Below are positions 20,282 through 37,808 of a stretch of 64,000 nucleotides of DNA, in pieces. How positions within the stretch are numbered: position 1 is the stretch's first letter; the number at the start of each line of letters is the position of its first letter. Both the position numbers and the translations under genes were made by a program. The notes beneath the pieces were generated by a model. The model was given only the letters and a program-made list of their open reading frames with translations, did no database searches and was not told the origin of the DNA. The DNA comes from Brachybacterium sacelli (GTDB lineage: Bacteria > Actinomycetota > Actinomycetes > Actinomycetales > Dermabacteraceae), in NCBI RefSeq assembly GCF_017876545.1, contig NZ_JAGIOD010000002.1:434001-498000 (forward strand), in the 5' to 3' direction.

Positions 20282-20330
20282 TTTACGTTAGTGCTGTCCG
20301 GAACGTGGTGGAGTTTCGGTTTAACGTCTA
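20282..20330 (+). repeat. ychF-end repeat R1 (attR of the element)
   Basis: 49 bp. Left arm TTTACGTTAGTGCTGTCC, core GGAACGTGGTGGAGTTTC, right arm GGTTTAACGTCTA. The core and right arm copy the last codons of ychF. The left arm is the inverted partner of the foreign arm at 5573-5591. Confidence 0.75.
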
Positions 20331-20356
20331 GCGTTAATGACGGACTCCGTTATACT
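20321..20356 (+). promoter_or_regulatory. Promoter and operator of the first higBA-kinase unit
   Basis: An inverted repeat TTAACG-TCTAG-CGTTAA (20321-20337) is built partly from the right arm of R1. A -10 box TATACT (20351-20356) lies 8 bases before the GTG start of higB, so the message is probably leaderless. No convincing -35 box. The inverted repeat is the likely HigA operator. Confidence 0.5.
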
Positions 20357-20364
20357 CTGGTCCC

Positions 20365-20646
20365 GTGATCAGATCGTTCGGGAGTAGGGACACCGAACGC
20401 ATCTGGCATGAGCAGTACGTCAAGCGCGTTGATCGGACCGTGCAGCGAGCGACCCTGCGGAAGCTCGAACTGATCCATGCGGCGAAGGACGTCGAGGACC
20501 TGCGGATTCCCCCAAGGAACCGCCTGGAACGCCTCGTCGGGGATCGTCGTGGGCAGCACAGCATCCGAGTCAACGCGCAATGGCGTCTCTGCTTCGTCTG
20601 GAGAGATGGAGGTGCGGACAATGTCGAACTCGTCGACTACCACTGA
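20365..20646 (+). CDS. higB: HigB-type toxin (RelE/ParE superfamily), copy 1
   Basis: 93 aa. HigB toxins are ribosome-dependent mRNA endonucleases neutralised by the HigA antitoxin encoded downstream. Sequence features: WHEQYVKRVDRTVQRATLRKLELI (first helices), LRIPPRNRLERLVGDRRGQHSIRVNAQWRLCFVW (beta sheet with the conserved NxQWRxxF core), ending VELVDYH. Normal length for HigB with the toxin-first order. GTG start at 20365 very close to the -10 box. Overlaps higA. Differs from copy 2 (32366) at about 8 of 93 residues. Confidence 0.9.
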   Translation: MIRSFGSRDTERIWHEQYVKRVDRTVQRATLRKLELIHAAKDVEDLRIPPRNRLERLVGDRRGQHSIRVNAQWRLCFVWRDGGADNVELVDYH

Positions 20647-20941
20647 GACCGACCTGATCGAGCCGATCCATCCGGGAGAGATCCTGATGGAGGACTTCAT
20701 CGAGGGCTTCGGGATCACGCAGAACAAGCTGGCCGTGTCGATCGGTGTGCCGCCGCGTCGGATCAACGAGATCGTGCACGGCAAGCGGGGGATCACAGCG
20801 GACACGGCGATCCGTCTGGCGCGGTACTTCGGAACGTCCGAGGAGCTCTGGATGAACCTGCAGTCGAACTACGAGCTGCGGCTCGAGCGTCGGACGCTGC
20901 GCGACAAGGTCGCTGCGATCACGCCGCTGGCAGTCGCGTGA
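20621..20941 (+). CDS. higA: HigA antitoxin, copy 1
   Basis: 106 aa. XRE-type DNA-binding antitoxin that binds HigB and represses the operon. PIHPGEILMEDFIEGFGITQNKLAVSIGVPPRRINEIVHGKRGITADTAIRLARYFGTSEELWMNLQ is the classic HigA helix-turn-helix; only about 3 of 106 residues differ from copy 2. Start at ATG 20621 with GGAGG upstream; the same position is GTG in copy 2. Overlaps higB (26 bases) and the kinase gene (4 bases, GTGA), so all three are one transcript. Confidence 0.92.
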   Translation: MSNSSTTTETDLIEPIHPGEILMEDFIEGFGITQNKLAVSIGVPPRRINEIVHGKRGITADTAIRLARYFGTSEELWMNLQSNYELRLERRTLRDKVAAITPLAVA

Positions 20942-21459
20942 CCGGTCGCCTCGTCGTTGTCTCCGGTCTGCCCGGGGTCGGCAAGACGAGTGTCGCCGTG
21001 ATCGTCGCTGTGAACACGGGATCGGTCCACCTTTCCATCGACGCAGTCGAGGATTCGATTCTCGCCTGCGGACTGCCGCCAGGGTGGCAAGTCGGCGTCG
21101 CGGCGTACGAGACGGTGCGCGCGATGGCGGAGCAAAATCTGCGGCTCGGTCACGATGTCGTCGTCGATGCTGTCAACGACAGCGAAGAGGCTAGGCAAAC
21201 GTGGCGGACGGCGGCCGCGCGTACGGGCGCATCCATCGAGTTCGTGCACCTCATGATCTCCGATGCGCTGGAGCATCAGCGAAGGCTCAGCGGCAGGGAT
21301 CGCTGTCTCACCTACGTCGGCGAACCGACCTGGGCGGACGTGCAGCGCCGTCGCGCTGACTACGCCGCGTGGTCCGATGAGGTCTTGGAGTTCGATACGG
21401 CAACGTGGGCTGCGGACGAGGTCGCGGACGCGCTCACCGCGCGCCTCAGCACGAGATGA
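20938..21459 (+). CDS. P-loop kinase-like protein linked to HigBA, copy 1
   Basis: 173 aa. Walker A GLPGVGKTS (residues 10-18) directly at the N-terminus, then HLSIDAVEDSIL and DVVVDAVNDSEEARQTW, the layout of small nucleoside/polynucleotide kinase-like ATPases (AAA_33 / zeta-like group). GTG start overlaps the higA stop. A kinase-like third gene is not part of a standard HigBA pair. It is kept in both copies of the unit, so it is probably functional: perhaps a second toxin, a modifier of the toxin, or a linked repair/modification enzyme. About 27 of 173 residues differ from copy 2, making it the fastest-changing gene of the three. Confidence 0.75.
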   Translation: MTGRLVVVSGLPGVGKTSVAVIVAVNTGSVHLSIDAVEDSILACGLPPGWQVGVAAYETVRAMAEQNLRLGHDVVVDAVNDSEEARQTWRTAAARTGASIEFVHLMISDALEHQRRLSGRDRCLTYVGEPTWADVQRRRADYAAWSDEVLEFDTATWAADEVADALTARLSTR

Positions 21460-21473
21460 GGCAAGGTCATCGC

Positions 21474-21522
21474 TGATGGTTCTCCGTGCCGTAACCCTGT
21501 GAGAGTTCCGATTCAACGTGTA
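21474..21522 (+). repeat. ychF-end repeat R2 (degenerate)
   Basis: 49 bp: TGATGGTT at the left, then GAGAGTTCCGATTCAACGTG and TA at the right. Follows the higBA-kinase unit. The same left arm (CTGATGGTTCTCCGTGC) follows the second higBA-kinase unit at 33475, so the arm travels with the unit. Confidence 0.6.
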
Positions 21523-21577
21523 GAGGGAAGCTTGTTTCGCGTTATTCATGCGTTCGTCATGTCGCGCCTGTCGGGCG

Positions 21578-22102
21578 CTATCGCAGCCTACGGCTCATGT
21601 AGAGCGCTGTGTCGTTGCTGGGGCAATCTCCATACAGCGTTTGATCAAGGCCCACGATGCGGAACCCCATGCTCTCGTAGGCGCGGATCGCCGGTACGTT
21701 ATCCACCTGTGTCTCAAGCCAGACATGTTGCGCGTCCGCAGATTCGGGCGCGTTGAACAACGTGTTGAGGAGTGCTCGTCCGATGCCCTGCCCACGCATC
21801 TGTGAGTCCACGTACATGTGAAGGAGGCAGAGCCGTCGGTTCCAGGATCTGAGGGTACCCGCAGCGAATCCGCAGACCCGATCGTTGTGCGTCGCCAGAT
21901 ATGCACAGTCCCACCCCGGAGGATCTTCCGCCAAGTACTGAGCCAGATCGTGTCGCTTGACGGTGGGGAAGGCCAGCGTCATCTCTTGCCAGGTGAACGA
22001 ACCGTTGTGGAATTCAACGTCTGCGTACGTCGTGAGTGGCGTTGCTGTATCAAGGTCGATGACCGCTTCACGGTCGGTGCTGTCGTACGTCCTCACCTTC
22101 AC
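21578..22102 (-). CDS. GNAT family N-acetyltransferase
   Basis: About 174 aa from GTG 22102 (VKVRTYDSTDREAV). An ATG at 22177 would add 25 residues of unlikely sequence. Motif A of the GNAT fold is MYVDSQMRGQGIGRALLNTLF (acetyl-CoA pyrophosphate binding), followed by VWLETQVDNVPAIRAYESMGFRIVG (motif B), as in aminoglycoside-type and RimI-like transferases. The substrate is unknown. It is the only gene of its cassette (between repeats at 21474 and 22273) and runs opposite to the array direction. Confidence 0.82.
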   Translation of the reverse strand: MKVRTYDSTDREAVIDLDTATPLTTYADVEFHNGSFTWQEMTLAFPTVKRHDLAQYLAEDPPGWDCAYLATHNDRVCGFAAGTLRSWNRRLCLLHMYVDSQMRGQGIGRALLNTLFNAPESADAQHVWLETQVDNVPAIRAYESMGFRIVGLDQTLYGDCPSNDTALYMSRRLR

Positions 22103-22272
22103 ATTGAAGAGTCTAGCAGACAGTCGGCGGGCCGAACCGGGAGGCACAGGGTCTGGCGTCGTTGGACGAGAACCCATTCGCGGAACAGTGTCCCTCAGGT
22201 CGTGATGTTCTCGGTGCACAACCTGTCCGTTGTTCCTGCCGGTGCTGCCGTGAGCTAACCCAGCGTGGATTA

Positions 22273-22321
22273 CAGATGGCTCTAGGTGCTGGAACTCGGT
22301 GGAGTTCCGGTTTAACGTCTG
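22273..22321 (+). repeat. ychF-end repeat R3
   Basis: 49 bp: CAGATGGC at the left, core GGAACTCGGTGGAGTTC, right arm CGGTTTAACGTCTG. Clear copy. Confidence 0.7.
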
Positions 22322-22349
22322 ATCATTGTGCACGACGAATAGGTTGGAA

Positions 22350-23021
22350 CTATCGGATCATCCGGTAGAAACCGGGAAGAGCGCGCATTCCGCTTCGCTT
22401 GAGCGTTCCGCGCACGACGCGGTGGAAGCTCGGGCGGAGCAACTGATTCACCAGGAAAGCCGGAGGGCTGCTTGGCAGGCGCACGTAGTTGACGAGAGGG
22501 AACTTCGAGGCGCTATCGCCGCGGAGCGCAGTTGAGTTGTCGACGCCGATCGCCGTTGTGTACCAATCGGTCAGCCCCAGCCAGGCGTCGATCGGGTCGA
22601 GGTCGCCGTCCGTGGTGAAGTGGTTCAGTAGGAAGTCCCCCTTGCCGCTGGACTCGGTCTCGCCGATCTTCGCCGCGTTCGAGCCCGCGAGGAGCGTCGT
22701 CGTGTCGAAGCCCGTGAGCGTGTCGCTCTCGCGCACGGCGGCCACGTCTGCGGGAGATGTTGTGCGAATGAGAAGTGTCAGATCGTGCCTCGGCATGCCG
22801 TGCAGCGGGGGCAAGATGCGTGAACGGAACACGCGGACGTAGGCCACATCCTCTCGGCTCTCGAGCGATCCGGCTGCCGCGACGACCTGTGCGGCGAGCT
22901 GGCGGCGGCGACGGTTCCAACGGACGAGCGGCAACTTCGGCGGCGATGAGGAGTTTACGCCGACGAGCAGGAAGCCCGAGGTCTCTGGGGCGACCAAGGG
23001 GAGCGGTGTGTTTGATGGCAT
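22350..23021 (-). CDS. Unknown protein divergent from a TetR regulator
   Basis: 223 aa, soluble. ATG 23021 with AAAGGA at good spacing. Sequence includes RNRRRRQLAAQVVAAAGSLESREDVAYVRVFRSR, DLTLLIRTTSPADVAAVRES and GKGDFLLNHFTTDGDLDPIDAWLGLTDWYTTAIGVDNSTAL. I see no catalytic motif or membrane helix; the middle reads like an alpha+beta barrel related to monooxygenase-like (EthD/Dabb) folds, but that is a guess. The divergent TetR gene and the two operators between them imply that it is repressed until a small molecule appears. Confidence 0.6.
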   Translation of the reverse strand: MPSNTPLPLVAPETSGFLLVGVNSSSPPKLPLVRWNRRRRQLAAQVVAAAGSLESREDVAYVRVFRSRILPPLHGMPRHDLTLLIRTTSPADVAAVRESDTLTGFDTTTLLAGSNAAKIGETESSGKGDFLLNHFTTDGDLDPIDAWLGLTDWYTTAIGVDNSTALRGDSASKFPLVNYVRLPSSPPAFLVNQLLRPSFHRVVRGTLKRSGMRALPGFYRMIR

Positions 23022-23043
23022 GATGATCCTTTCTGAACTGAGT

Positions 23044-23078
23044 GAGTGCCCACTCAGCCTAGCATTGAGTGTGCACTC
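23044..23078. promoter_or_regulatory. Two TetR operators
   Basis: GAGTG-CC-CACTC (23044-23055) and GAGTG-TG-CACTC (23067-23078), centres 23 bp apart, between the divergent starts at 23021 and 23098. The identical arms and central position mark them as binding sites of the adjacent TetR protein. Confidence 0.75.
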
Positions 23079-23097
23079 ACTCAGGTACCATGAAGAC

Positions 23098-23730
23098 ATG
23101 GATGCTCTGCCCCTCATGCGCGAACGAATCCTCGATGCTGCGCTGGCCTGCATGCGCGAGACCGGTGTGCGCGGTGCAACGACAAAGGCCATCGCGCGAC
23201 ATGCCGGGGTCGCTGAGGGCAGTATCTACAATCATTTCGCGAATCGCTCCGAGCTGATCGTCGCCGCGTTCAGACGAGCCACGCAGGGGGTCCGTGAACA
23301 TGCGGTCGGGCTCCGAGAGCGGGTGGGCGAGGAAACTGTGGAGGCGAATCTCGTTCGACTCATGGATGAGGCGATCGAGTTTCTCGGGGAGATCCTCCCT
23401 ATCGCCGGCTCCGTCATGGGCGATCCCTCGCTACGCGAATGGTTCAGTGCTCAGGAGTCGACGGGTGACGGCGACGCAGTGACCCCGCTCCTCGGTGTCG
23501 TGGAGATCGCACGGTATCTGGAGGCCGAGGCTCAGCGAGGGCGTATCCCCGTGCGGGAGTCGTGGGTTCCGGCCGCGGCAATGCTCAGCGGGGCGTGCCT
23601 GCAGTATGCCTATGCGGGCCACCTGTCGCCCTCGGGAATCGGTGGCATGCTGCCGGGCGATGCGAGCTCCCCCCGGGATTATGCTCGCGCCGTCGTAGGA
23701 TCACTGTTCGAGTTTCCGGCAAGTTCTTGA
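23098..23730 (+). CDS. TetR family regulator
   Basis: 210 aa. N-terminal HTH: RERILDAALACMRETGVRGATTKAIARHAGVAEGSIYNHFANRSELIVAAF (residues ~7-57), standard TetR. The C-terminal ligand domain is divergent and the ligand unknown. ATG 23098 lies just after two GAGTG/CACTC operators that it shares with the divergent gene at 23021. The last codons (EFPASS-stop) run directly into an inverted fragment of higB. Confidence 0.88.
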   Translation: MDALPLMRERILDAALACMRETGVRGATTKAIARHAGVAEGSIYNHFANRSELIVAAFRRATQGVREHAVGLRERVGEETVEANLVRLMDEAIEFLGEILPIAGSVMGDPSLREWFSAQESTGDGDAVTPLLGVVEIARYLEAEAQRGRIPVRESWVPAAAMLSGACLQYAYAGHLSPSGIGGMLPGDASSPRDYARAVVGSLFEFPASS

Positions 23731-23787
23731 GTGCGGTCCGCTGCGCGGTCCGGTCGACGCGCTTGACGTACTGCTCATGCCAGATAC
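23725..23787 (-). pseudogene. Inverted fragment of a higB toxin gene
   Basis: Read on the minus strand it encodes IWHEQYVKRVDRTAQRTALK, matching residues ~13-32 of the two intact HigB proteins (IWHEQYVKRVDRTVQRATLR). It lies opposite to the intact copies and overlaps the tetR stop by a few bases. A remnant of a lost toxin-antitoxin unit. Confidence 0.7.
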
Positions 23788-24042
23788 CGGCTGGCAGCGG
23801 CGATCGCGGCTGCGATCCAGCCATAGCGGGATACGCGTTCGCTGCTCACCTTGGATGATGTTGCGGCTAGGGAGTACGCCGAGGTGTTCGTCGCGCATGA
23901 GCGTGCCTGGTTGCCGATCACCATGGCTGATGCCCAAATCGTCGCGATTTGTCGCGTTCGCCATGCCACGTGTGCGACTCGGAACATCAAGGACTTCGCT
24001 CATAACGGCGTAGAGTTGGTCGATCCCTGGTCAGGGTCGTGA
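23788..24042 (+). pseudogene. 3' fragment of a VapC-type PIN domain toxin gene
   Basis: The frame ending at 24042 reads VAAREYAEVFVAHERAWLPITMADAQIVAICRVRHATCATRNIKDFAHNGVELVDPW. This is the C-terminal half of a PIN ribonuclease: MADAQIVAIC has the third acidic residue and TRNIKDF the fourth. The N-terminal half with the first Asp is missing, and no VapB antitoxin is present, so it is dead debris. Confidence 0.65.
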
Positions 24043-24054
24043 GTGGCCTGTTTG

Positions 24055-24252
24055 CGGCTCGCTGGCAGGGGCGGGTACGCGAATCAGGCCGTCCGACTAC
24101 TGGTCGCCGAGCTCGTGGACCGGGGTGTGCAGCAGGTCGCGCACATTCATCCGGTCACCTGGCGTTGCAGCAAGTCGCCGGATCCATCGGATTCTCTGCG
24201 ACCGATGAGGTGATCGACGGCAAAGGTCGCTGGGCCGATGCTATCGGCTAAG
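24055..24252 (+). pseudogene. Frameshifted 3' fragment of a GNAT acetyltransferase
   Basis: One frame reads GYANQAVRLLVAELVDRGVQQ followed by HIHPV. After a shift near 24150 another frame reads LQQVAGSIGFSATDEVIDGKGRW. Together they resemble the last third of a GNAT protein (Gly-Tyr-x4-Ala acetyl-CoA motif, then the final helix and strand). Broken and truncated. Confidence 0.5.
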
Positions 24253-24272
24253 CGCTCCGGCCCCGTGCCTGC

Positions 24273-24321
24273 CAGAGGTTGCCAAGTACCAGAACTAGGT
24301 GGAATTCAGGTTTGCGCTCTA
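24273..24321 (+). repeat. ychF-end repeat R4
   Basis: 49 bp: CAGAGGTT at the left, AGAACTAGGTGGAATTC core, right arm AGGTTTGCGCTCTA. Somewhat decayed at the right end. Confidence 0.65.
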
Positions 24322-24357
24322 GCCTCTGGAGCTCTCTCACGGGTCAGCCTCCTCCTA

Positions 24358-24396
24358 TTGCCCCGTAGATCCTGTAAGGTCTACACTGGTGACATG
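24358..24396 (+). promoter_or_regulatory. Promoter of relE-like copy 1 and its broken leaderless start
   Basis: TTGCCC (24358-24363), 18-bp spacer, TACACT (24382-24387), then ATG at 24394, 7 bases after the -10 box. That ATG is immediately followed by TGA. In copy 2 the same place reads ATG TGG. Confidence 0.6.
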
Positions 24397-24402
24397 TGAA
24401 GC

Positions 24403-24744
24403 GTGGACATCGAGCTGATTGCTGGGTGGCTCGTTTCGCTGGATGACGGTTCGCGTGAGCAGGTGGTCGCCGCGATCGAGTTGTTGGAGGACAGAGGTCC
24501 TCGGCTCGGGCGGCCCATCGTTGACACCGTGAGCGCATCCCGGCACAAGAACATGAAAGAACTCAGGCCAGGTTCGTCCGGCCGGTCCGAGCTGCGCGTT
24601 CTGTTCGCATTCGATCCAGAGCGATCGGCGATCATGCTGATCGCCGGAGACAAGGCCGGCGACTGGAAACGCTGGTACAAGAAGAACATCCCGTTGGCCG
24701 ATGACCTGTTCGAGGACCATTTGAGCAGACTGAGGGGAGAATGA
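24403..24744 (+). CDS. RelE/HigB-like toxin (phage Gp49-like), copy 1, start impaired
   Basis: 113 aa from GTG 24403. Family: Gp49-like / HigB-type toxins paired with XRE antitoxins. Features: DIELIAGWLVSLDDGSREQVVAAIELLEDRG, MKELRPGSSGRSELRVLFAFDPERSAIMLIAGDKAGDWKRWYKKNIPLADDLF, with the typical K-x-R-W-Y segment. In copy 2 translation starts at an ATG three codons upstream; here that ATG is followed by TGA (Trp to stop), so expression must begin at the GTG or is lost. About 21 of 113 residues differ from copy 2. Overlaps the antitoxin by 4 bases. Confidence 0.8.
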   Translation: MDIELIAGWLVSLDDGSREQVVAAIELLEDRGPRLGRPIVDTVSASRHKNMKELRPGSSGRSELRVLFAFDPERSAIMLIAGDKAGDWKRWYKKNIPLADDLFEDHLSRLRGE

Positions 24745-25055
24745 CTGCAATGGCAAAGACTTTGAAGGGCTTCGTTGCGGAGCACCCTGTCGACCGTGGG
24801 CGTGTCGAGGCGCACAAGGAGCGGATGCTGGCTGAGGTTCGCGCCTACCGCCTGCGCGAGCTGCGGGAGCAGGCCGGACTCACGCAAGCGCAACTGGCAG
24901 AGCGTATCGGTGTCGGGCAGCGACAGGTTTCGAAGATCGAGCATGGCGACCTCGACAGCGCGAAGGTCGGCACCATCCGCAACTACCTCGAGGCCGTCGG
25001 TGGTGAACTCGCTCTCGAGTACGTGATGGGTGACCAGCGCGTACAGGTCGCCTGA
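24741..25055 (+). CDS. XRE-family antitoxin, copy 1
   Basis: 104 aa. Helix-turn-helix LRELREQAGLTQAQLAERIGVGQRQVSKIEHGDLDSAKVGTIRNYLEAVGG, then a short C-terminal strand (LALEYVMGDQRVQVA) that probably contacts the toxin. ATG 24741 overlaps the toxin stop (ATGA); ATG 24750 is possible. About 14 of 104 residues differ from copy 2 at 31964. It would bind the operon promoter and neutralise the toxin. Confidence 0.88.
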   Translation: MTAMAKTLKGFVAEHPVDRGRVEAHKERMLAEVRAYRLRELREQAGLTQAQLAERIGVGQRQVSKIEHGDLDSAKVGTIRNYLEAVGGELALEYVMGDQRVQVA

Positions 25056-25058
25056 TTT

Positions 25059-25107
25059 CAGACGTTACTCGGCTACGGAACGTGGTGGAGTTCAGGTTCA
25101 ACGTCTA
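25059..25107 (+). repeat. ychF-end repeat R5 (best preserved)
   Basis: 49 bp: CAGACGTT at the left, GGAACGTGGTGGAGTTC core, right arm AGGTTCAACGTCTA. The stretch ACGTGGTGGAGTTCAGG is identical to ychF at 5558-5574, and the rest restores the codons Phe-Asn-Val missing from ychF here. Confidence 0.8.
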
Positions 25108-25408
25108 AAAAGCGCCTCTGACCAGGGGTTTTATCTTCTCGACTTCCTGTTGGGCTCGACGGAAGAGTTTCGATCTACCATCAGCTGCTTAGCGTTTATC
25201 CCGCTGACCTGCGCTTTTAGTCGGCCCCTTCGGAACCTCCGCAGGGGGCCGACTCTTGTTTCTGCGGTGCGGGAGCGTCTCTGGGACGCAGCCTCGGCTG
25301 GCCAGTGCTGTGGCGGGTTCACATCGTTCGGCGCGCGATCTCTCGGGCGGTGCGCTGACTCAAAAATCAGTTTGACTCAAAAGTCGGGTGTCCCAACAGC
25401 GCCGCGGT
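25108..25408. other. Non-coding stretch with a terminator-like hairpin
   Basis: No gene seen. AGTCGGCCCC (25219-25228) pairs with GGGGCCGACT (25245-25254) across a 16-base loop and is followed by CTTGTTTC, a probable rightward terminator. A short direct repeat TGACTCAAAA occurs twice near 25360 and 25375. Confidence 0.5.
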
Positions 25409-25777
25409 TCACTGGGGCAGGTCTCGTTCTGCCAGAGTGCGAGTGATCTCGTCCCATTGGGAGCTCGCGACCAATTGGCGGTGCCGGCGCAAGGCGGTCT
25501 GCCATGACCCGAACTCCGCTGGCAGCTCGCGCCACGTGATGGCGGTGCGGGTCTTGTAGAGAGCCGCGTCGACGATCGTGCGTATGTCAGTGCGTGGACG
25601 CCCGCGGCGAGGGCCCTCTTCTGAGCCTGGATGCGCCGGCCGGATTCTGAGTGCGTTTCGCGGGAGGTTCGGGAGGGAATCCACGGGCGGTTCTGGTGAA
25701 TGGCGTGGGGTAGCTGCCGGTCTGCCCGGCCTTTCCACTGTCGATTCCTTCTCGTCGGGGCAGGGGCTGCAGGTCAC
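25409..25777 (-). pseudogene. Partial IS5-type transposase (N-terminal domain only)
   Basis: 122 codons. From about residue 57 on it reads RRGRPRTDIRTIVDAALYKTRTAITWRELPAEFGSWQTALRRHRQL, the N-terminal DUF4096-like domain of IS5 family transposases (compare the intact IS5 at 36146). The DDE domain is absent, so it cannot transpose. The first ~40 residues look non-coding. Confidence 0.5.
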
Positions 25778-27145
25778 GCTGTCATAGGGAGCTTCTCGGT
25801 GGCCTCGAACAGTGCTTCCCAGCCTGATTGCCAGGGCCAGTTCCGCGGTAGGTGCAGTCGCCAGGAGCGGGCCCGGTTGGCGATCCGGGCTGGCACCGCG
25901 ATCAGCTGGGCAAGGATCGTGGCCGTCCGCGCTTTTGCGTGGAGCTTCGAGGCGAGCACGCCGGCGGCGCGGGTGAGGTTGAAGGCGATGGCTGCCAGGA
26001 CGGTCCAGGCGCTGTTGGCGGTGAAGACCCCGGAGGGCAGGTGTGCCAGCGGCCCGTTCTTGAGGTCGGCGATGATCTGCTCGACGATCGCGTGATCACG
26101 GTGGGAGGCCTCCGCGTCCAGCATCGAGAGCGGGAAGTCGGTGAACACCGCGTGGTGACGGTAGGCGGCCAGTAACTCGTCCTGCCCACCACCGGTGGGG
26201 TCCAGGCGTTTGACGCGCCGCACGATCAATCGGGCGGTGACGTGCTGGTCCTGTCTGCGGGAGGTGAAGGCGGTGTAGGGAATCTCGGCGACCTCGGCAT
26301 CAGAGACCCAGCGCTGCTCACGCTCGTCCCAGATCGCCTGTGGGTACTTGATCCCCACCCACGCGTCCTCGGGGATCCGGGAGATCGCCGCGACCACGCC
26401 CGGGTTCATCCGGGCCGTGAGCGAGAAATGCGCTCCGCCGCGGCGGGCGGCGGCCACCACGCTCTGTTGGTAGTAGGCGCTGTCGGCCCGCACCGTCACA
26501 AGACCGCCGGCCCCGGCACGTCTCGCGGTGGCCAGGGACTCGGAGATCAGCTTGGCGGCCCCGTGAGCGGAAGCGGACGAGCCCTTGCGCAGCCGGATTC
26601 CGGTGATCGCCGGCGCCGCCAGCGGGGTCGAGAGCGTGGCGACCTGGGCGTTGAGTCCTTTGACGCCGCTGTAGCCGTAGCCGGCGCCCTGCTTGGCATA
26701 CCCGTGGGTGGCGCGGATCGTGTCATCGACATCCAGGTAGGCCACCTGTCCGGCGCCGGCCAGCAGGCCCGGCACCCGGCCGGCCAGGCCGGCCAGGAGC
26801 CGGGAGGCGACCGCGTCGAGCTGTCGCACGTGCCCGAAGGTGTAGCTGCGGACATGGGTGCCCAGCGTGGTCGGGGCCCGCCGCTCGGTGAAAGCGCGGC
26901 CCATCCCGCCATGGCGCAGCAGGTCCATGTCGGAGATGCTGTCCGCCCCAGCGACCATCCCCGCGACCAACGAGGAGACCTTCACCGTCGCGTTCGCCCC
27001 GGGGGGTGCCGGCGACGCTCACATGCTCGGCCACCAGGTCGCTCAGCCCGGCGGACTCGGCCAGGGCCATCACCGGGACCGGGCCCGCCCTCGCGATCAG
27101 ATTGCCGTCATCGAACTCGGCGGAGAAGTCATGGGATACTCGCAC
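25774..27145 (-). pseudogene. IS1380 family transposase, frameshifted
   Basis: Two frames together give a full-length IS1380-type transposase. The N-terminal part begins at GTG 27145 (VRVSHDFSAEFDDGNLIARAGPVPVMALAESAGLSDLV), with GGAG upstream. The rest starts around 26985 (VKVSSLVAGMVAGADSISDMDLLRHGGM, then YLDVDDTIRATHGYAKQGAGYGYSGVKGLN, DSAYYQQSVV, IVEQIIADLKNG). The shift is at a run of six C on the coding strand near 27002; five would restore the frame. It may be a real mutation, programmed slippage or a sequencing error. IS ends were not identified with confidence. Confidence 0.75.
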
Positions 27146-30965: not shown

Positions 30966-30985
30966 ACTTGTCCCGGCCGGGGCGA

Positions 30986-31435: not shown

Positions 31436-31512
31436 CTAATGACGATATCGCTTCGCGACGTGACGCATCGCTATCTCGGTGCGTTACTGGCCTTGGCTTG
31501 TAACGAGTGCTG

Positions 31513-31561
31513 CTAACGAAACCGCTCATGGCGACCCGGTCGAGTTCCGCTGCAACGTTGC
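31513..31561 (+). repeat. ychF-end repeat R8 (degenerate)
   Basis: The core CGACCCGGTCGAGTTCCGC and CAACGTT at the right match R7 and the consensus; the left arm is not recognisable. It stands at the expected place before a toxin unit. Confidence 0.5.
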
Positions 31562-31581
31562 ACGGCTCGATCGCGGGCTCA

Positions 31582-31619
31582 TTGCGAGTAGACCATGCGG
31601 GGTCTATACTGGAGGTATG
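31582..31619 (+). promoter_or_regulatory. Promoter of relE-like copy 2, leaderless start
   Basis: TTGCGA (31582-31587), 17-bp spacer, TATACT (31605-31610), then ATG at 31617, 7 bases after the -10 box. A transcript from this promoter would begin at or next to the start codon. Confidence 0.7.
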
Positions 31620-31967: not shown

Positions 31968-32278
31968 TCGAGATGGCCATGTCGCTGAAGGACTTCGTCG
32001 CCGAGCACCCTGTGGACAGGGAGCGTGTCGATGCGTACAAGGAGCGGATGCTCGCCGAGGTGCGCGCTTACCGTCTCCGCGAATTGCGCGAAGAAGCGGG
32101 CCTGACCCAAGCGCAGCTCGCGGAACGTATCGGCGTGGGGCAGCGTCAGGTCTCCAAGATCGAGCGCGGGGACCTCGACAGCGCGAAGATCGGCACGATT
32201 CGCAGCTACCTCGAAGCGGTCGGCGGGGGCTTGGCGATCGAGTATGTGTTGGGTGACCAGCGCGTGCAGGTTGCTTGA
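31964..32278 (+). CDS. XRE-family antitoxin, copy 2
   Basis: 104 aa with GTG start overlapping the toxin stop (GTGA); ATG 31973 is possible. HTH: LRELREEAGLTQAQLAERIGVGQRQVSKIERGDLDSAKIGTIRSYLEAVGG. Partner and repressor of the toxin encoded at 31617. Directly followed by repeat R9 and then the second higBA-kinase unit. Confidence 0.88.
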   Translation: MIEMAMSLKDFVAEHPVDRERVDAYKERMLAEVRAYRLRELREEAGLTQAQLAERIGVGQRQVSKIERGDLDSAKIGTIRSYLEAVGGGLAIEYVLGDQRVQVA

Positions 32279-32281
32279 CTC

Positions 32282-32331
32282 CAGATGTTCCGCAAGTGAC
32301 GAAACGCGGTGGAGTTCCGGTTTAACGTCTA
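32282..32331 (+). repeat. ychF-end repeat R9
   Basis: 50 bp: CAGATGTT at the left, CGAAACGCGGTGGAGTTC core, right arm CGGTTTAACGTCTA. The right arm is nearly the same as in R1, which also precedes a higBA-kinase unit. Confidence 0.7.
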
Positions 32332-32357
32332 GCGTTAATAGCGACGGTCGTTATACA
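32322..32357 (+). promoter_or_regulatory. Promoter and operator of the second higBA-kinase unit
   Basis: TTAACG-TCTAG-CGTTAA (32322-32338) overlaps the right end of R9. The -10 box TATACA (32352-32357) is 8 bases before GTG 32366. Same layout as at 20321. Confidence 0.5.
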
Positions 32358-32365
32358 CTGGTCTC

Positions 32366-32647
32366 GTGATCAGATCGTTCGGCAGCAAGGACACCGAACG
32401 CATCTGGCATGAGCAGTACGTCAAGCGCGTCGACCGGACGGTGCAGCGGGCGACCTTGCGGAAGCTCGAGCTGATCCATGCGGCGACGGATGTCGAGGAC
32501 CTCCGGGTCCCGCCGGGGAACCGCCTGGAGCGGCTGGTCGGCGACCGTTGCGGGCAGCACAGCATCGGCGTGAACGCGCAATGGCGTCTCTGCTTCGTCT
32601 GGAGAGAGGGAGGTGCGGACGGTGTCGAACTCGTCGACTACCACTGA
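32366..32647 (+). CDS. higB: HigB-type toxin, copy 2
   Basis: 93 aa, about 91 percent identical to the toxin at 20365 (8 differences, among them R to C at residue 62 and R to G at 51 and 68). WHEQYVKRVDRTVQRATLRKLELI and NAQWRLCFVW are unchanged. The lost Arg residues are in the region that contacts RNA in HigB relatives, so activity may differ; this is inference. GTG start, probably leaderless. Overlaps higA. Confidence 0.88.
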   Translation: MIRSFGSKDTERIWHEQYVKRVDRTVQRATLRKLELIHAATDVEDLRVPPGNRLERLVGDRCGQHSIGVNAQWRLCFVWREGGADGVELVDYH

Positions 32648-32942
32648 GTCCGATCTGATCGAGCCGATCCACCCGGGAGAGATCCTGATGGAGGATTTCA
32701 TCGAGGGATTCGGGATCACGCAGAACAAGCTGGCGGTGTCCATCGGTGTGCCGCCGCGTCGGATCAACGAGATCGTGCACGGCAAGCGAGGGATTACGGC
32801 TGACACGGCGATCCGTCTGGCGCGGTACTTCGGGACGTCCGAGGAGCTCTGGATGAACCTGCAGTCGAACTACGAGCTTCGGCTCGAGCGGCGGGCGCTG
32901 CGCGACAAGGTCGCTGCGATCACGCCGCTGGTAGTCGCGTGA
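32622..32942 (+). CDS. higA: HigA antitoxin, copy 2
   Basis: 106 aa from GTG 32622, with GGAGG upstream. About 3 of 106 residues differ from copy 1, far fewer than in the toxin or kinase. The two antitoxins can probably neutralise either toxin and repress either promoter. HTH and flanks as described for copy 1. Overlaps the kinase gene by 4 bases. Confidence 0.9.
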   Translation: MSNSSTTTESDLIEPIHPGEILMEDFIEGFGITQNKLAVSIGVPPRRINEIVHGKRGITADTAIRLARYFGTSEELWMNLQSNYELRLERRALRDKVAAITPLVVA

Positions 32943-33460
32943 CCGTTCGCCTCGTCGTGGTCTCCGGTCTGCCCGGGGCCGGGAAGACGAGCGTCGCCGA
33001 GATCATCGCTGCGCGCACGGGGTCGGTCCATCTTTCCATCGACGCAGTCGAGGAGTCGATCCTCGCCTGCGGTCTGCCGTCAGGGTGGCAAGTCGGCGTC
33101 GCGGCGTACGAGGCGGTGCGTGCCATGGCGGAGCAGAATCTGCGGCTCGATCACGATGTCGTCGTCGATGCTGTCAACGACAGTGAAGAGGCTCGGCAGA
33201 CCTGGCGGACGGCGGCCTCGCGAACGGATGCATGCATCGAGTTCGTGTACCTCATGATCTCCGATGCGCGGGAGCATGAGCGAAGGCTCAGCGGCAGGAA
33301 TCGCGGTCTCGTTTTCGTCGGTGAGCCGACCTGGACGGACGTTAAGCGCCGGCGCGCTGACTACGCCGCGTGGTCCGATGAGGTCCTGGAGTTTGACACG
33401 GCAGCGCGGACTGCGGACGAGATCGCAGACGCACTCACCGCGCGCCTCAGCACGAAATGA
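32939..33460 (+). CDS. P-loop kinase-like protein linked to HigBA, copy 2
   Basis: 173 aa. Walker A GLPGAGKTS at residues 10-18, HLSIDAVEESIL and DVVVDAVNDSEEARQTW kept, C-terminus DALTARLSTK. Third gene of the higB-higA-kinase operon, GTG start on the higA stop. About 16 percent of residues differ from copy 1, but all motifs are intact, which points to selection for function. Confidence 0.75.
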   Translation: MTVRLVVVSGLPGAGKTSVAEIIAARTGSVHLSIDAVEESILACGLPSGWQVGVAAYEAVRAMAEQNLRLDHDVVVDAVNDSEEARQTWRTAASRTDACIEFVYLMISDAREHERRLSGRNRGLVFVGEPTWTDVKRRRADYAAWSDEVLEFDTAARTADEIADALTARLSTK

Positions 33461-33474
33461 GGCAACGTCATCGC

Positions 33475-33522
33475 TGATGGTTCTCCGTGCTGGCATGCGG
33501 TGGAATTCAGATTCAACGTGTA
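33475..33522 (+). repeat. ychF-end repeat R10
   Basis: 48 bp: TGATGGTT at the left, GCATGCGGTGGAATTC core, right arm AGATTCAACGTGTA. Left arm shared with R2, both following a higBA-kinase unit. Confidence 0.65.
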
Positions 33523-33566
33523 GAACCGCCACTGACCAGGCGTTCTAGGCGCGCAGTTCGAGGCTC

Positions 33567-34196
33567 TCACCCCACGAATGCGATTCCGTTGCCGTCCGGA
33601 TCTCGAACGATGAAGTCGGTGCCGCCCCACGCCTGCTTGGTCAGCTTCTGCACGATCTCGACGCCCGTTGCCCGGTACTCGGAGTACAGTTCCCGAACAC
33701 TGGGCGCGTCGATGTACGCCATGATCAGTCCCTCCCTCCGCGCGGCATTAACGTCGAATACCGACTCATGCACGAGCTTCAGGTGCAGCCGTGCGCCGTC
33801 CCGTGAGGCCGCTCCGTAGAACGGTGGGCTCCCGTGGAGGAAGTCGATCCGAAATCCGAGCTGGTCCCGATAGAACGTAGCTGAGATGTCGACATCGGCG
33901 ACGTGCAGCACCGGCGTGCTGAATAGCGTCGCGGATTCTCCCTGTTCCGGCCGTTCGCCGACAGGAGGGGCGGTGTCGGCGCTCGTCTTCAAGTCGGCCC
34001 AACTGGTGTACCCCGCTTCGAGGGCGATGATCTCCTGGGCCTCGTGGAGGGGGAATGGCAAAGCGAGCGCTTCACGGTCGGACAGCGCCCGATAGCGTGC
34101 GAGCTGCCGGATGCGACCGCCGATCGAATGGTTGCCCTCGCGATGCCAGCGGACCAGCAGTTTTGCCTGCTTCTTGTAGGTGTCGATCGTGGGCAT
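33567..34196 (-). CDS. Glyoxalase/bleomycin-resistance superfamily protein with N-terminal helical domain
   Basis: 209 aa. Residues ~90-209 form a VOC domain: TPVLHVADVDISATFYRDQLGFRIDFLHG, ARLHLKLVHESVFD, VRELYSEYRATGVEIVQKLTKQAWGGTDFIVRDPDGNGIAFVG (terminal D-P-x-G-N motif). The first ~75 residues (YKKQAKLLVRWHREGN, DREALALPFPLHEAQEIIALEAGYTSWADLK) are a helical extension seen in some glyoxalase-superfamily proteins. Metal-dependent enzyme or drug-binding protein; substrate unknown. ATG 34196. First gene of the last clear cassette. Confidence 0.8.
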   Translation of the reverse strand: MPTIDTYKKQAKLLVRWHREGNHSIGGRIRQLARYRALSDREALALPFPLHEAQEIIALEAGYTSWADLKTSADTAPPVGERPEQGESATLFSTPVLHVADVDISATFYRDQLGFRIDFLHGSPPFYGAASRDGARLHLKLVHESVFDVNAARREGLIMAYIDAPSVRELYSEYRATGVEIVQKLTKQAWGGTDFIVRDPDGNGIAFVG

Positions 34197-34370
34197 GACT
34201 CCTTCTTCCGAAGTGACGTAGGTGGGCCTAGCCCTTTCGGCTCTTGTGCCGTTGCGCCCTACGACCGGGAGTGTCCCGCGCCTGCGTCGTAGAAGCTACC
34301 ACGGGGTGTCTGTCGCGAAGACGTGAGCAGCCTGAACCGCCCTGGGTTTCGTTCCGTTCTTCATGCAAGG

Positions 34371-34505
34371 ATGGAACCGAACCAGAGATGCTCTCCCGAG
34401 ATGCGCGAGCGCGCCCTCCGGATGCTCGATGAAGCGCGCGCGAGCGGCGGTCGACCGAACCTGATGTCCGCGGTGCGGCATGCCGCCTCGGCCTGCTCGG
34501 TATGA
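34371..34505 (+). pseudogene. Possible IS3-type OrfA N-terminal fragment
   Basis: 44 codons, EMRERALRMLDEARASGGRPNLMSAVRHAASAC, resembling the HTH start of IS3 OrfA proteins (Glu-Met-Arg-Glu-Arg-Ala pattern). No rest of an IS3 element is present. The surrounding 34197-34624 holds nothing else I can support. Confidence 0.35.
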
Positions 34506-34624
34506 GCGCCGCGACCGAATCAGCCCAGCGAACGCTCGCTGGATAGGGAACCCGATAGGGACGAAACTCAGAGCGATTCAGTTCGCGTCGTGACTGAACA
34601 TGTTCGAAGGCTGGTTCTCGGTTC

Positions 34625-35059
34625 TCACCGCAAGGCGAGCTCATCGAGTGCCGCGCTGAGCGCATGAGCCAACGCCTGGCGGGTCGCCGGCGACAGTGCG
34701 GTCATCTCAGCCTCGGCATCGTTGTAACGCGCGCGCGCGAGCCGCTCCAACAGGGCTCTGGTCTTCGCAGTGACAGTGATCGTCTTGCTCCGCCGGTCGA
34801 CGGGACTCTTAGTACGGCGTAGGTAGCCCGCAGTTTCCAGACGATCGATCATCTGCGTCGCAGAAGGTTGTGACAGCCCGAGCGAGAAAGCGATCGTCGA
34901 GGGAGTCGATGCCGCGCCGCGCGCCACTCGATCAAGCAGGATCGCCTGGGTTGCCGTCACCGACGCTGCGTCGAGGACCGCCAGATCACCGCGGCGAACG
35001 CTGCGCACCCGGTCCGAGACTTGCACGAACAGCGCAGCGAGATTTGCGTCGTCGGTCAT
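34625..35059 (-). CDS. MarR family regulator
   Basis: 144 aa. Winged helix: LDAASVTATQAILLDRVARGAASTPSTIAFSLGLSQPSATQMIDRLETAGYLRRTKSPVDRRSKTITVTAKTRALLERL (residues ~25-105), with the D-R-R-S wing motif. ATG 35059 overlaps the stop of the upstream SnoaL-like gene by 4 bases, so both are one operon. Probably represses this operon; ligand unknown. Confidence 0.88.
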   Translation of the reverse strand: MTDDANLAALFVQVSDRVRSVRRGDLAVLDAASVTATQAILLDRVARGAASTPSTIAFSLGLSQPSATQMIDRLETAGYLRRTKSPVDRRSKTITVTAKTRALLERLARARYNDAEAEMTALSPATRQALAHALSAALDELALR

Positions 35060-35454
35060 AGGTGCGGAGCGTTGAACATTACCTTTGCCGACTCATCCAT
35101 CTTGGTGTTCTGGTAGGCGGTACAGAACCACCGCTGTCCACGACGTACGAACGTGAACGTCTGAAACTTGTCGTGAGGCGTATCCTCGGCACCTAAGCCG
35201 CCGACGGTGGTGAACACTGCCGAGGTCTCCGAAAGCTGCACCTTCCGGATCGGCGTCACCCGCATCTTCTTTCCATCGAGCCACTTCGAGAAGATCTCCG
35301 CGTGGCCCTCGACGATTCGCTGGCGGCCGTGCTGCAGCTCGCCGGACCAGGCCACGTAAGTCGCATCCTCTTCGAACTCGGCACCGTACGCCTCGGCATC
35401 TGCGTTGTTCCATGCATCGCGGATGCGGTCCAAGCATGCTTCAGGTGTATCCAT
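35056..35454 (-). CDS. SnoaL-like/NTF2-fold protein (SgcJ/EcaC type)
   Basis: 132 aa from ATG 35454, which has GGGAGG at 9 bases; an ATG at 35463 would put that site too close. ACLDRIRDAWNNADAEAYGAEFEEDATYVAWSGELQHGRQRIVEGHAEIFSKWL and FQTFTFVRRGQRWFCTAYQNTKM are typical of the family. Likely ligand-binding or small-molecule enzyme. Coupled to the MarR gene. Confidence 0.82.
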   Translation of the reverse strand: MDTPEACLDRIRDAWNNADAEAYGAEFEEDATYVAWSGELQHGRQRIVEGHAEIFSKWLDGKKMRVTPIRKVQLSETSAVFTTVGGLGAEDTPHDKFQTFTFVRRGQRWFCTAYQNTKMDESAKVMFNAPHL

Positions 35455-35643
35455 TTCCGTCATCCTCCCGAGTAGTTGTCTCCATAGTAGTTCACGCGCA
35501 TGAAGCATTCAAGTGGTGTGATGCATCGCTGGGGGTGGCTCGTGCTCGTGTGATCTTGATCATGATGTCCTCGACGGTCTCAGTCCACATGAACGGTTGG
35601 GGGTCGTCGTTCCAATGTGAAGCTCAGTGGTCGATCGCGCTCT

Positions 35644-36215
35644 CTAGGACATGGCTTGTAAGCATCGCTGGGTCCAGGCGATCACCGCGTTGAGCACCAC
35701 GGCGGCGCGGAACACGATCGCGAGCTTGTCGTAGCGCGTCGCGAGCCCACGCCACTGCTTCACATCACTGAAGCGCCGCTCCACGACGTTGCGCCCCTTG
35801 TATTCGACTGCGTCGAAGCCAAGAGGGCGCCCGCCGCGCGACCCGCGTCGTTTGCGGTGAGCCTGCTGATCGCGCGGTTGCGGGATCACGGCGCGGATCC
35901 CGCGATCGCGCAGGTGGGCGCGGATTGCGCGGGCGGAGTACGCCTTGTCTCCACGGACCGCGTCGGGACGCGTGCGGGGACGCCCGAGTGGGCGCGCGAC
36001 ACGGAGCCTGGATAGCAGTGGCAGTAACGCGGGCGCATCGCCGGACTGGCCGGGCGCAACGGCGACCACCATCGGGAGCCGATGGTCGTCGACAAGCTGG
36101 TGGATCTTCGTCGACAGCCCGCCGCGGGAGCGTCCGACCGCGTGATCAGGCTGCTCGACGGCCGGATCCGTGTAATTCAATCCAGCCCCCTGTGGGGCGC
36201 GTGACATTGGTCGCG
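35644..36215 (-). CDS. IS5 transposase, C-terminal ORF B
   Basis: Catalytic part read after the frameshift: second Asp in VRGDKAYSA and the Glu region in RNVVERRFSDVKQWRGLATRYDKLA. The open frame extends further right (to 36399), but that part is antisense-like to ORF A and not real. Ends at the IS border. Confidence 0.75.
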
Positions 36216-36541
36216 TGCTGATGCGCACGGGCAATCGACGAGTCCACCGACACCGTCCAGCCGATCTTCCCGTCCCGATCAGCGGCGGCCAGCAGCCTCT
36301 GATGGATCTGGTCCCAGGTGCCGTCGCCGGCGAGGTTGCGGTGCCACCGCCACACGGTCTGCCATGGGCCGAACTCTCGCGGCAGGTCGCGCCACGCAAT
36401 CCCGCACCGGTATCGGTAGATGATGCCCTCCACGATCGCCCGCGCGTCCGAGAACGGGCGGCCCTGGCGGCCCGTTCGGGACGGAAGGAACGGCGCGATC
36501 AACGCCCACTGATCATCGGAGAGGAGCTGGAAGCGCGACAC
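36146..36541 (-). CDS. IS5 transposase, N-terminal ORF A
   Basis: 131 aa. DUF4096-type DNA-binding part plus the first catalytic Asp in SVDSSIARAHQHA (near residue 98). The protein is completed only if ribosomes shift into the frame of ORF B (35644-36215), which carries the remaining catalytic residues. Confidence 0.8.
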   Translation of the reverse strand: MSRFQLLSDDQWALIAPFLPSRTGRQGRPFSDARAIVEGIIYRYRCGIAWRDLPREFGPWQTVWRWHRNLAGDGTWDQIHQRLLAAADRDGKIGWTVSVDSSIARAHQHATNVTRPTGGWIELHGSGRRAA

Positions 36542-36592
36542 CCCTCCAGAGTCTCAGCCAGACCGCTCAACCTTTATAAGACACGCCCTAGC

Positions 36593-37708
36593 TGTTGCGG
36601 GTCATGACGTTGTGGTCACGGCGTATGGGATGAAGGAACGGGCCCCTGGACTGCACGATGGGTGGTGTCTAAGCAACCGTCTCGCAGGAAGAGGCCCGTT
36701 CCATGCACCACCGTAATGCGCCGCTGACCGTCGTTGGAAGGCAGCGAGCTGTCGCGCAGGTCATCGACTCCGGTCGCCCGATCGCCCACGTCGCGGCCGA
36801 GTTTCACATCGCTCGCACCACGCTCTCGAAATGGGTCGGCCGCTACCGCGAGCACGGCGACCCAGGCCTGCAAGACCACTCCAGCGCGCCGGCGAACCGC
36901 CCCACCCGCCTCCCGATCTGGGTGCTCGAGCTGATCGAGTCCTGGCGGCGGAAGAGGAAGTGGTCCGCGCGCCGGATCGCCCGCGAGCTCGCCGACGGCC
37001 ACGGGTTCGCGTGCTGCGTGAGGACGGTGACGAGGTGGCTGGACCGCCTCGGCTTGAACCGGATCCGCGATATCACCCCAGACGGTGAGAACCTGCGTTC
37101 ACCAGGGAAGATCACCGCCCGCTACCCCGGCCACATAGTCCACATGGACGTCAAGAAGGTCGGTCAGATTCCCGACGGCGGCGGCTGGCGGGCCCATGGT
37201 CGTGGCAGCGAACTGGCCCTCGCCGGCAAGCGCGCCCACAAGCAAAAGGTCGGCTACACCTACCTCCACTCCATGGAGGACGGCTTCTCCCGCCTGTCCT
37301 ACACCGAGTCGCTCGAGGACGAGAAAGCGATCACGACCATCGGGTTCTTCCATCGCGCCCGCGTGTTCTTCGCCGCGCACGGCATCACCTGGATCACGCG
37401 GCTGGTCACCGACAACGGCAGCAACTACACCGCCTCAGCGTTTCGGCGATCGACCTGCGCTTTCATCTCCCGGCACCAGCGTACGAGGATCTACACACCT
37501 CGCCACAACGGCAAGATCGAGCGCTACCAGCGGATCCTGGCCGAGGAGTGCCTCTACGCCCGCCCCTACGGCTCCGAGACCGAGCGGCGCGAAGCGATCG
37601 CGATCTGGGTCCATCACTACAATTTCCACCGACCCCACACCGCCTGCGGCGACCAGCCCCCGGCCTCACGACTTCACACCGGCGTCGACAACGTCATGAC
37701 CAACTACA
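36593..37708 (+). mobile_element. IS481 family element with 6-bp target duplication
   Basis: Left end TGTTGCGGGTCATGACG (from 36593), right end as inverted TGTAGTTGGTCATGACG (to 37708), 3 mismatches in 21. Flanked by CCTAGC at 36587-36592 and 37709-37714. The target is the outer edge of the IS5 element, so IS481 arrived after IS5. Confidence 0.88.
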
Positions 37709-37713
37709 CCTAG
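36703..37713 (+). CDS. IS481 family transposase
   Basis: 336 aa. N-terminal HTH (AHVAAEFHIARTTLSKWVGRYREHGDPGLQDHSS), then the rve/DDE integrase core: HMDVKKVGQIPDGGG (first Asp), VTDNGSNYT (second Asp), HNGKIERYQRILAEE (Glu), and NFHRPHTACGDQPPASR at the end. Intact. The stop codon TAG is inside the target-site duplication, so the gene runs through the right terminal repeat. Confidence 0.93.
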   Translation: MHHRNAPLTVVGRQRAVAQVIDSGRPIAHVAAEFHIARTTLSKWVGRYREHGDPGLQDHSSAPANRPTRLPIWVLELIESWRRKRKWSARRIARELADGHGFACCVRTVTRWLDRLGLNRIRDITPDGENLRSPGKITARYPGHIVHMDVKKVGQIPDGGGWRAHGRGSELALAGKRAHKQKVGYTYLHSMEDGFSRLSYTESLEDEKAITTIGFFHRARVFFAAHGITWITRLVTDNGSNYTASAFRRSTCAFISRHQRTRIYTPRHNGKIERYQRILAEECLYARPYGSETERREAIAIWVHHYNFHRPHTACGDQPPASRLHTGVDNVMTNYT

Positions 37714-37759
37714 CCGCGGGCCCTCTGGATCGCTGGACTCGGTGAGGCGGAGGATCGTC

Positions 37760-37808
37760 CAGAGGTTGGTCTGTGCCGGAACGCGGTGGAGTTCAGATTC
37801 AACGTGTG
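37760..37808 (+). repeat. ychF-end repeat R11
   Basis: 49 bp: CAGAGGTT at the left, GGAACGCGGTGGAGTTC core, right arm AGATTCAACGTGTG. Last clear copy of the array. Confidence 0.7.

Follow-up and report, generated by a model that had tools for sequence, protein, structure and literature searches.

Integron cassettes, with their attC sites and the integrase IntI, form arrays of small units that carry toxin-antitoxin and acetyltransferase genes and have one site per unit. Also already known are islands that serine recombinases stack at the end of a gene, as in the staphylococcal and Enterococcus cassette chromosomes (SCC and ECC) and at ssrA of Dehalococcoides, and the accretion of cis-mobilizable elements (CIMEs). 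Here we analyse a 64,000-nucleotide stretch of the Brachybacterium sacelli genome (contig NZ_JAGIOD010000002.1, positions 434,001 to 498,000; hereafter the window), in which eleven copies of a repeat related to the 3′ end of the GTPase gene ychF bound a chain of small gene units. On the best reading of the comparison, the closest described systems are SCC and the Dehalococcoides ssrA islands, but here at the scale of integron cassettes.

In the excerpts of the cited papers that were available, SCC and ECC (recombinases CcrAB) have 50-bp att sites with inverted repeats and target the 3′ part of rlmH; 16 of 32 ECCs have several attR at their locus, and ECCs measure 21-78 kb and carry ccrAB (PMC6222049). 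The locus described here shares with them a large serine recombinase (LSR), sites of ~50 bp with inverted repeats, the 3′ region of a conserved gene as target and several sites per locus, but has one LSR gene in its element, differs in target gene and core, and consists mostly of units that lack a recombinase and can be as small as ~0.6 kb; its site is the 3′ end of ychF, not the 3′ region of rlmH. The Dehalococcoides ssrA islands have a CcrB-like serine integrase, DsiB, and 28 direct repeats of the gene’s 3′ end, with a 20-bp repeat; 15 islands lack an integration module, and content varies by strain (PMC3146451). There too, serine recombinase units are stacked downstream of one essential gene, but that gene encodes tmRNA, in one genus and with dehalogenase cargo, whereas here it encodes a protein, the median interval is 1.5 kb and many actinobacterial genera are involved. 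CIMEs of the ICESt1 type keep their att sites, lack an integrase, are stacked and can be mobilized by a resident element (PMC5704250). In contrast to such decayed islands, the small one- to few-gene units considered here recur intact across genera. Like integron cassettes, they form an array with one site per unit, and the arms of the site travel with the unit; unlike integrons, the window contains no IntI, the site has another geometry, with a GT-centred dyad, and genes lie on both strands.

New, as far as the open-licence literature searched shows, are the position of the site at ychF, the cassette size of the units, how broadly they occur and the presence of one and the same unit in different orders. 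No paper linking ychF with a serine integrase in actinobacteria was among the open-licence PMC matches listed, and it may have been described elsewhere; the word ‘ychF’ is absent from the available parts of two papers on actinobacterial integrative and conjugative elements (PMC3218068, PMC9513070). Excerpts of two further papers place a pneumococcal phage attB of other sequence beside ychF (PMC8637289) and report a serine-recombinase integrative and mobilizable element in R. equi (PMC10669575). PMC10383233 and PMC12811286 each name ychF once.

Results

The array is probably composed of non-autonomous mobile gene cassettes that share one docking site, the 3′ end of ychF, and are moved by ychF-specific LSRs. 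Half-sites are exchanged at the core, units are stacked at ychF, genomes differ by whole units and one cassette is shared across orders; an LSR family is present at ychF ends and probably moves the cassettes. Each repeat copy is a hybrid attachment site, whose left half resembles the attP arm of an LSR and whose right half mostly copies the 3′ end of ychF (VEFRFNV-stop). Attachment-site halves of the attP kind are called P and P′ below, and the half copying the ychF end B′. The sites (R1 to R11) and units of the window are as follows.

20282..20331, + strand: site R1, P arm of the LSR element joined to the right half of cassette 1 (repeat search, pattern, dyad)
20307..21499, + strand: cassette 1, HigB toxin, HigA antitoxin and AAA_33 kinase-like protein (Pfam)
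21474..21523, + strand: site R2, divergent (pattern, eye)
21499..22298, - strand: cassette 2, GNAT acetyltransferase at 21578-22096 (Pfam)
22273..22322, + strand: site R3 (repeat search, pattern, eye)
22298..24298, both strands: cassette 3, protein without Pfam match at 22350-23018 (-) and TetR regulator at 23098-23730 (+)
24273..24325, + strand: site R4, long right arm (repeat search, eye, arm typing)
24298..25084, + strand: cassette 4, Gp49-like protein (toxin type) and helix-turn-helix (HTH) protein (antitoxin type)
25059..25108, + strand: site R5, its right side being terminator-like DNA found directly after ychF in several relatives
25084..27289, no strand assigned: unit 5, native-looking ychF downstream DNA and insertion sequence (IS) transposase at 25774-26985 (-)
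27264..27320, + strand: site R6, long right arm, the 56-bp copy (repeat search, eye, arm typing)
27289..30942, no strand assigned: cassette 6, TetR-type regulator at 27540-28229 (-; named by eye), short-chain dehydrogenase, small open reading frame (ORF) at 29078-29407, LtrA
30917..30966, + strand: site R7 (repeat search, pattern, eye)
30942..31538, - strand: cassette 7, 149-aa protein without Pfam match
31513..31562, + strand: site R8, divergent (pattern, eye)
31538..32308, + strand: cassette 8, second Gp49-like/HTH pair
32282..32332, + strand: site R9 (repeat search, pattern, eye)
32308..33499, + strand: cassette 9, second HigB-HigA-kinase unit
33475..33524, + strand: site R10 (repeat search, pattern, eye)
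33499..37785, no strand assigned: unit 10, glyoxalase-like, MarR and DUF4440/SnoaL-like proteins and two IS transposases
37760..37809, + strand: site R11, last clear copy (repeat search, pattern, eye)

Integration and transfer genes are absent among the scanned ORFs of cassettes 1-4 and 6-9 (a part of their ORFs), and the att-type ends are kept. The cassette genes, which lie on both strands, probably have their own promoters. At the end of cassette 3, a short frame (23850-24042) resembles by eye the C-terminus of a PIN-domain (VapC-like) toxin.

All eleven copies stand where a preliminary description of this DNA had placed them (repeat search, pattern match and alignment by eye), which bears out its chain of direct repeats. 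Nine form one 51-nt family in the repeat search, and the more divergent copies at 21474 and 31513 were aligned by eye. When as many as 3 mismatches are allowed, a pattern of the right half matches nine times in the window, always on the + strand, where 0.05 matches were expected and none of 100 shuffles reached nine; it misses the copies with long right arms, at 24273 and 27264. Over the whole genome, the nine right-half matches that have no more than 2 mismatches are all inside this array, and the seven 3-mismatch matches on contig C1 are scattered over both strands, with six for the reversed pattern. The repeats are therefore not dispersed over the genome, a dispersal that the same description had named as fatal to its idea. 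Its claim that the right arm is the ychF C-terminus holds for the short arms and fails for the longer ones (24273, 27264 and the ychF end itself).

Several simpler origins of the repeat were rejected. Chance is ruled out by the whole-genome, shuffle and matrix-control counts, and a scattered genomic repeat by the whole-genome pattern search; IS end repeats are ruled out by copies that bound unrelated units and match ychF, a tRNA-associated site by a window with no tRNA, and an attC or integron origin by a window with no IntI and by a site geometry that differs by eye, the ends reading inward as GTT...AAC.

Two kinds of right arm can be told apart, a short one that copies the ychF end and a longer one with a TAACGTCTG-type box further out; the latter is found in the window at 24273, at 27264 and at the ychF end. 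The left arms of the cassettes, CAGANGTT...CGGAAC, are of the same type as the P arm of the LSR element, and one site matrix fits both. Joining the halves of the LSR element (left of R1, right of the ychF end) gives 16 complementary positions out of 22 around the centre GG|TG, compared with at most 9 at other centres within 6 bp, and none of 100000 permutations reaches 16; the reconstructed attP has a dyad with a central dinucleotide, as expected of the roughly 50-bp attP of an LSR element. Strand exchange falls within the core trinucleotide GGT, and its likeliest position is the central GT.

Comparable arrays are widespread. We number 38 Brachybacterium genomes with the prefix G (G000 is the window genome), and higher numbers denote the rest of 396 genomes of the order. 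The right-half pattern matches in 30 of the 38, and its reversed control in none. A ychF gene was found in 35 of them (no match in G016, G030 and G031), and 34 loci were examined, G015 being omitted for its cut ychF. More than one site is present in 27 of the 34, downstream of ychF and in the same orientation; of the seven single-site loci, those of G026, G029 and G032 end at a contig edge soon after ychF. A 40-bp site matrix gave 111 forward, 0 reverse and 0 reversed-control matches at score 13, a count that includes ychF ends and is not independent of the pattern, the matrix having been trained on the same 34 loci; at score 9 the figures were 127, 3 and 0. The matrix missed the divergent copy R2 and at least one pattern-found site, at 6245 of G027. 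Sites also lie on three contigs that lack ychF (G001:C23, G018:C76 and G036:C47). Neighbouring sites bound 85 intervals in 24 loci, with lengths of 137-12205 bp (median 1488 bp); a few very short ones may come from miscalled sites. Among 101 cassette sites, the right arm is B′ in 72, long (P′) in 11 and unclear in 18; at ychF itself it is B′ in 23 of the 34 loci, P′ in 10 and unclear in 1. Six of the long-armed ychF ends have tails like RTGLTSGGKK or RSGLTSGGKK (G000, G006, G013, G022, G027 and G032).

In the whole order, at least three same-strand matches occur in 52 of 396 genomes; 41 of these belong to 12 other genera, and a single genome has up to 10 matches. This tally was made by eye, with one match overall in the reversed control, and outside the genus clustering and position relative to ychF were seen only for the positions listed. 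Many of those cluster on one contig, and those of G274 fall on two. Named genomes with arrays are Propioniferax innocua (L103, 6 sites), Brevibacterium sp. S111 (L128, 3 sites), Gordonia hydrophobica (L127, 2 sites) and Nocardia farcinica. The commonest families among 135 cassette ORFs are GNAT acetyltransferases (7), HTH_3 (7), HigB (4, partly frames added by hand), aminoglycoside adenylyltransferase-like proteins (4) and TetR (4), and two to three encode AriA- and GajA/OLD-like defence proteins.

The units that genomes share tend to begin at the core. Between 163 genome pairs we found 304 common stretches, a set in which the higBA family predominates and whose members are not independent; a core lies within 30 bp in both genomes at the start of 157 and at the end of 27, where 1000 random placements gave a mean of 0.23 and a maximum of 4 for one core-bounded end. 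In the higBA cassette, the DNA right of the core is conserved and that to its left unrelated: it is joined to ychF coding DNA in G005, G009 and G037 and elsewhere to different arms. Nine stretches reach at least 97% identity over at least 500 bp, and four run core to core within 20 bp, namely cassette 6 of the window, shared with G010 (3688 bp, 99.5% identity), and those of G004/G036 (1192 bp, 99.2%), G004/G010 (1185 bp) and G010/G036 (1197 bp); ychF DNA is 87-90% identical in these four pairs. Counting the G027 site at 6245 makes the 1289-bp stretch of G027/G036 a fifth case. Three others have a core at their right end alone, and that of G006/G017 is unbounded. A Brachybacterium genome (G014) and Nocardia farcinica share 1336 bp at 99.1% identity without gaps, from a core to 21 bp beyond the next, with ychF DNA at 79.0% identity over 500 bp. 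G014 has 5% contamination, yet the contig that bears its array is 464 kb long and encodes a YchF of 92% identity. A search of plasmid records with cassettes gave one match that led to the Nocardia farcinica array.

Empty and filled sites can also be compared. G034 has a native ychF end with nothing inserted, and in G013 units of ~5 kb separate ychF from the right flank that the two genomes have in common; their ychF genes are 98.8% identical, the right flank has 24 mismatches in 3000 bp, and homology breaks at GGT. With this pair, and with the window set against G010, the predicted difference by whole units was found, between species rather than strains of one. Unit ends at the core recur in different genomes and neighbourhoods, which upholds the suggestions that arms travel with the unit and that units were added serially at ychF by a site-specific recombinase, the central idea of the preliminary description. 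It was right that no IntI-type integrase is present (none of the 21 PF00589 matches of the genome lies in the window), but a site-specific recombinase does exist outside the coordinates it covered, an LSR encoded ~8 kb left of the array.

This LSR belongs to a 14.7-kb mobilizable element that sits between ychF and the first repeat copy. The ychF gene of the window, the sole match in the genome, lies ~15 kb left of that copy, and its 3′ end is a recombined site with the core GGT at 5562: it reads GACGTGGTGGAGTTCAGGACGGGACTTACGTCTG instead of RFNV-stop, ychF up to the core and then other DNA, which gives the new C-terminus RTGLTSGGKK. Ends with a long arm are seen at 5562-5604 of the window and also in the LSR loci L045, L052, L059, L064 and L067. 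The features of this part are listed here.

4501..5604, + strand: ychF, GTPase (Pfam YchF-GTPase_C, MMR_HSR1)
5562..20309, + strand: LSR element, from the ychF core to the R1 core (dyad of joined halves; gene content)
5699..10164, + strand: type III restriction-modification pair, Mod 5699-7528 and Res 7525-10164 (Pfam, PADLOC)
11057..12613, + strand: LSR, 518 aa, full length, Resolvase and Recombinase domains (Pfam PF00239, PF07508)
12740..13279, + strand: ArdA antirestriction protein (Pfam)
15611..17541, - strand: relaxase 15611-16855 and NikA/MobC-like protein 16852-17541 (Pfam)
17869..19416, - strand: replication-initiator-like protein (Pfam RNA_helicase; Rep_OBD slightly under the cut-off)
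19669..19974, - strand: HTH_17 protein near the right end of the element (Pfam), by its position and family a possible excisionase

The 518-aa protein has both domains that mark LSRs of ~500 aa and matches solved serine integrases such as those of TP901-1 and phiC31 in sequence; we propose it as the enzyme acting on the sites. Its relatives (the 120 best of 1617) occur in Brevibacterium, Corynebacterium, Glutamicibacter and others. Among LSR loci (L numbers; the best 80 of 92, 1.46 Mb), ychF lies within 48, and in 21 of these the LSR match begins at most 60 bp from its end. An opposite-strand site stands beside the LSR start in 20 of the 80, 14 of them without ychF in the locus, and ychF or a site is found somewhere in 67. 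The matrix built from Brachybacterium sites matches these loci 28 times forward and 22 times in reverse, with none in reversed and complemented controls, and P′ arms of the type seen in the window occur at many of their ychF ends. Within Brachybacterium, an N-terminal LSR fragment stands beside a site in G007 and G012. Plasmid and phage relatives of the LSR (134 and 445 records) are all <60% identical.

Two of these loci have a short ATG-started copy of the ychF end that resembles a spare docking site (L059, at oriented position ~1860, and L103, around 12205). In L079, a Corynebacterium LSR element, the type III Res is 95% identical to that of the window and HigBA 83-86% identical, which indicates that related elements travel between families.

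Discussion

In the mechanism that we propose, the docking site would be the attB of an LSR family carried by mobilizable elements. Most cassettes have a B′ half-site at the left end, restoring ...VEFRFNV-stop, and a P half-site, CAGANGTT...CGGAAC, at the right. Because an incoming cassette of this kind would bring a new B′ half, insertion would restore both the coding end of ychF and the docking site, so that further units could stack. Elements with an LSR integrate at this site too, ahead of the array, and could take adjacent cassettes along to other hosts, whether in a composite circle (accretion and cis-mobilization) or one by one. Normal LSR excision recombines attL with attR. This reaction would release the LSR element and rejoin ychF to the B′ half of the first cassette, and would also explain exit together with cassettes; capture of a single cassette would need P.B′ x B.B′, outside the standard LSR reactions.

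Several results weigh against mobile cassettes moved by ychF-specific LSRs. A circle of the common cassette type would carry P.B′, a product-type site and not an attP. Thirteen of the 80 LSR loci have neither ychF nor a site, which makes us slightly less confident. Among the 38 Brachybacterium genomes only the LSR of the window is close; in ten others the matches are 31-45% identical and located elsewhere, and no LSR domain match came from the remaining ychF loci examined in the genus. Of the 304 shared stretches, 130 have no core at either boundary and only 10 have one at each, and the arrays compared were those of species, not strains. No plasmid record covers 80% of either of the two cassettes queried, viral contigs contain no exact P-core match, and the 18 right arms of neither clear type indicate that decay is common.

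One rival is tandem accretion followed by decay, to which we give a little under an even chance: the units would be eroded remnants (CIMEs) of full LSR islands that had entered at ychF, immobile by themselves and spread only when a functional LSR element leaves the site with its neighbours. The LSR remnants of G007 and G012, the long-armed P′...P units (11 of the 101 cassette sites) and the IS debris inside units all fit such a history, whose mechanism is described, in the available excerpts, for SCC/ECC, ssrA islands and CIMEs (PMC6222049, PMC3146451, PMC5704250). Simple decay would, however, leave the P′...P type, which the B′...P units outnumber by 72 to 11; the units are also small, as the intervals show, and single ones recur core to core at ~99% in different neighbourhoods, once across orders. 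Two other routes have far less in their favour. Tyrosine recombinases, integron-like or XerC/D-like, occur in all 38 genomes and could act in trans, and the inner inverted repeat, GGAAC...GTTCC, looks like the core site of such an enzyme, but none of the 21 matches of this genome lies in the window, none of the genus matches listed is near ychF, the site matrix fits the ends of LSR elements and the dyad centre fits the 2-bp core of an LSR; we regard this as very improbable. Homologous recombination between arrays after ordinary horizontal transfer, through repeats, ychF and flanks, is disfavoured and hardly to be expected. Close species do have sufficiently conserved ychF and downstream DNA, with repeats of ~50 bp, yet the 99.1%-identical Nocardia/Brachybacterium cassette stops aligning at both cores next to diverged ychF genes, 157 of 304 shared stretches begin within 30 bp of a core, and the arms left of it differ.

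Mobile cassettes docked at ychF by its LSRs thus remain our preferred explanation, and more tentatively, at somewhat less than even chances, we suggest a third gene-cassette system, an analogue of the integron, in which an LSR that mobilizable elements supply intermittently captures and shuffles single-gene cassettes singly at ychF across Actinomycetes by means of a hybrid P.B′ site, which every cassette carries and which re-creates the docking site when the cassette inserts. If LSRs do move single cassettes, gene capture of the integron kind arose with another recombinase superfamily, and serine integrases must be able to use a hybrid P.B′ site, which bears on how reaction direction is controlled. 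The arrays would form a gene-sharing platform in a large bacterial class, in which one cassette has passed between orders almost unchanged, and their contents amount to a ready-made inventory of genes for toxin-antitoxin systems, acetyltransferases and defence-type functions.

Additional observations

A second core-like sequence, GG.CGAGTTCCGATCTACCAT, lies at 25161-25181 of the window and, conserved in relatives (G001, G002, G013, G014, G023, G028, G033, G034 and G036), ~77 bp past the point where native ychF ends; it may be a fossil site, which would make the ychF terminator a minimal unit. All PF00589 tyrosine recombinase matches of the window genome lie elsewhere in it, and integrase fragments with identical scores stand close to the two ends of each contig, inverted in order (G000:C1:959, C1:3139163, C2:10550 and C2:1717870); they represent either terminal inverted repeats or a repeat at which the assembly was interrupted.

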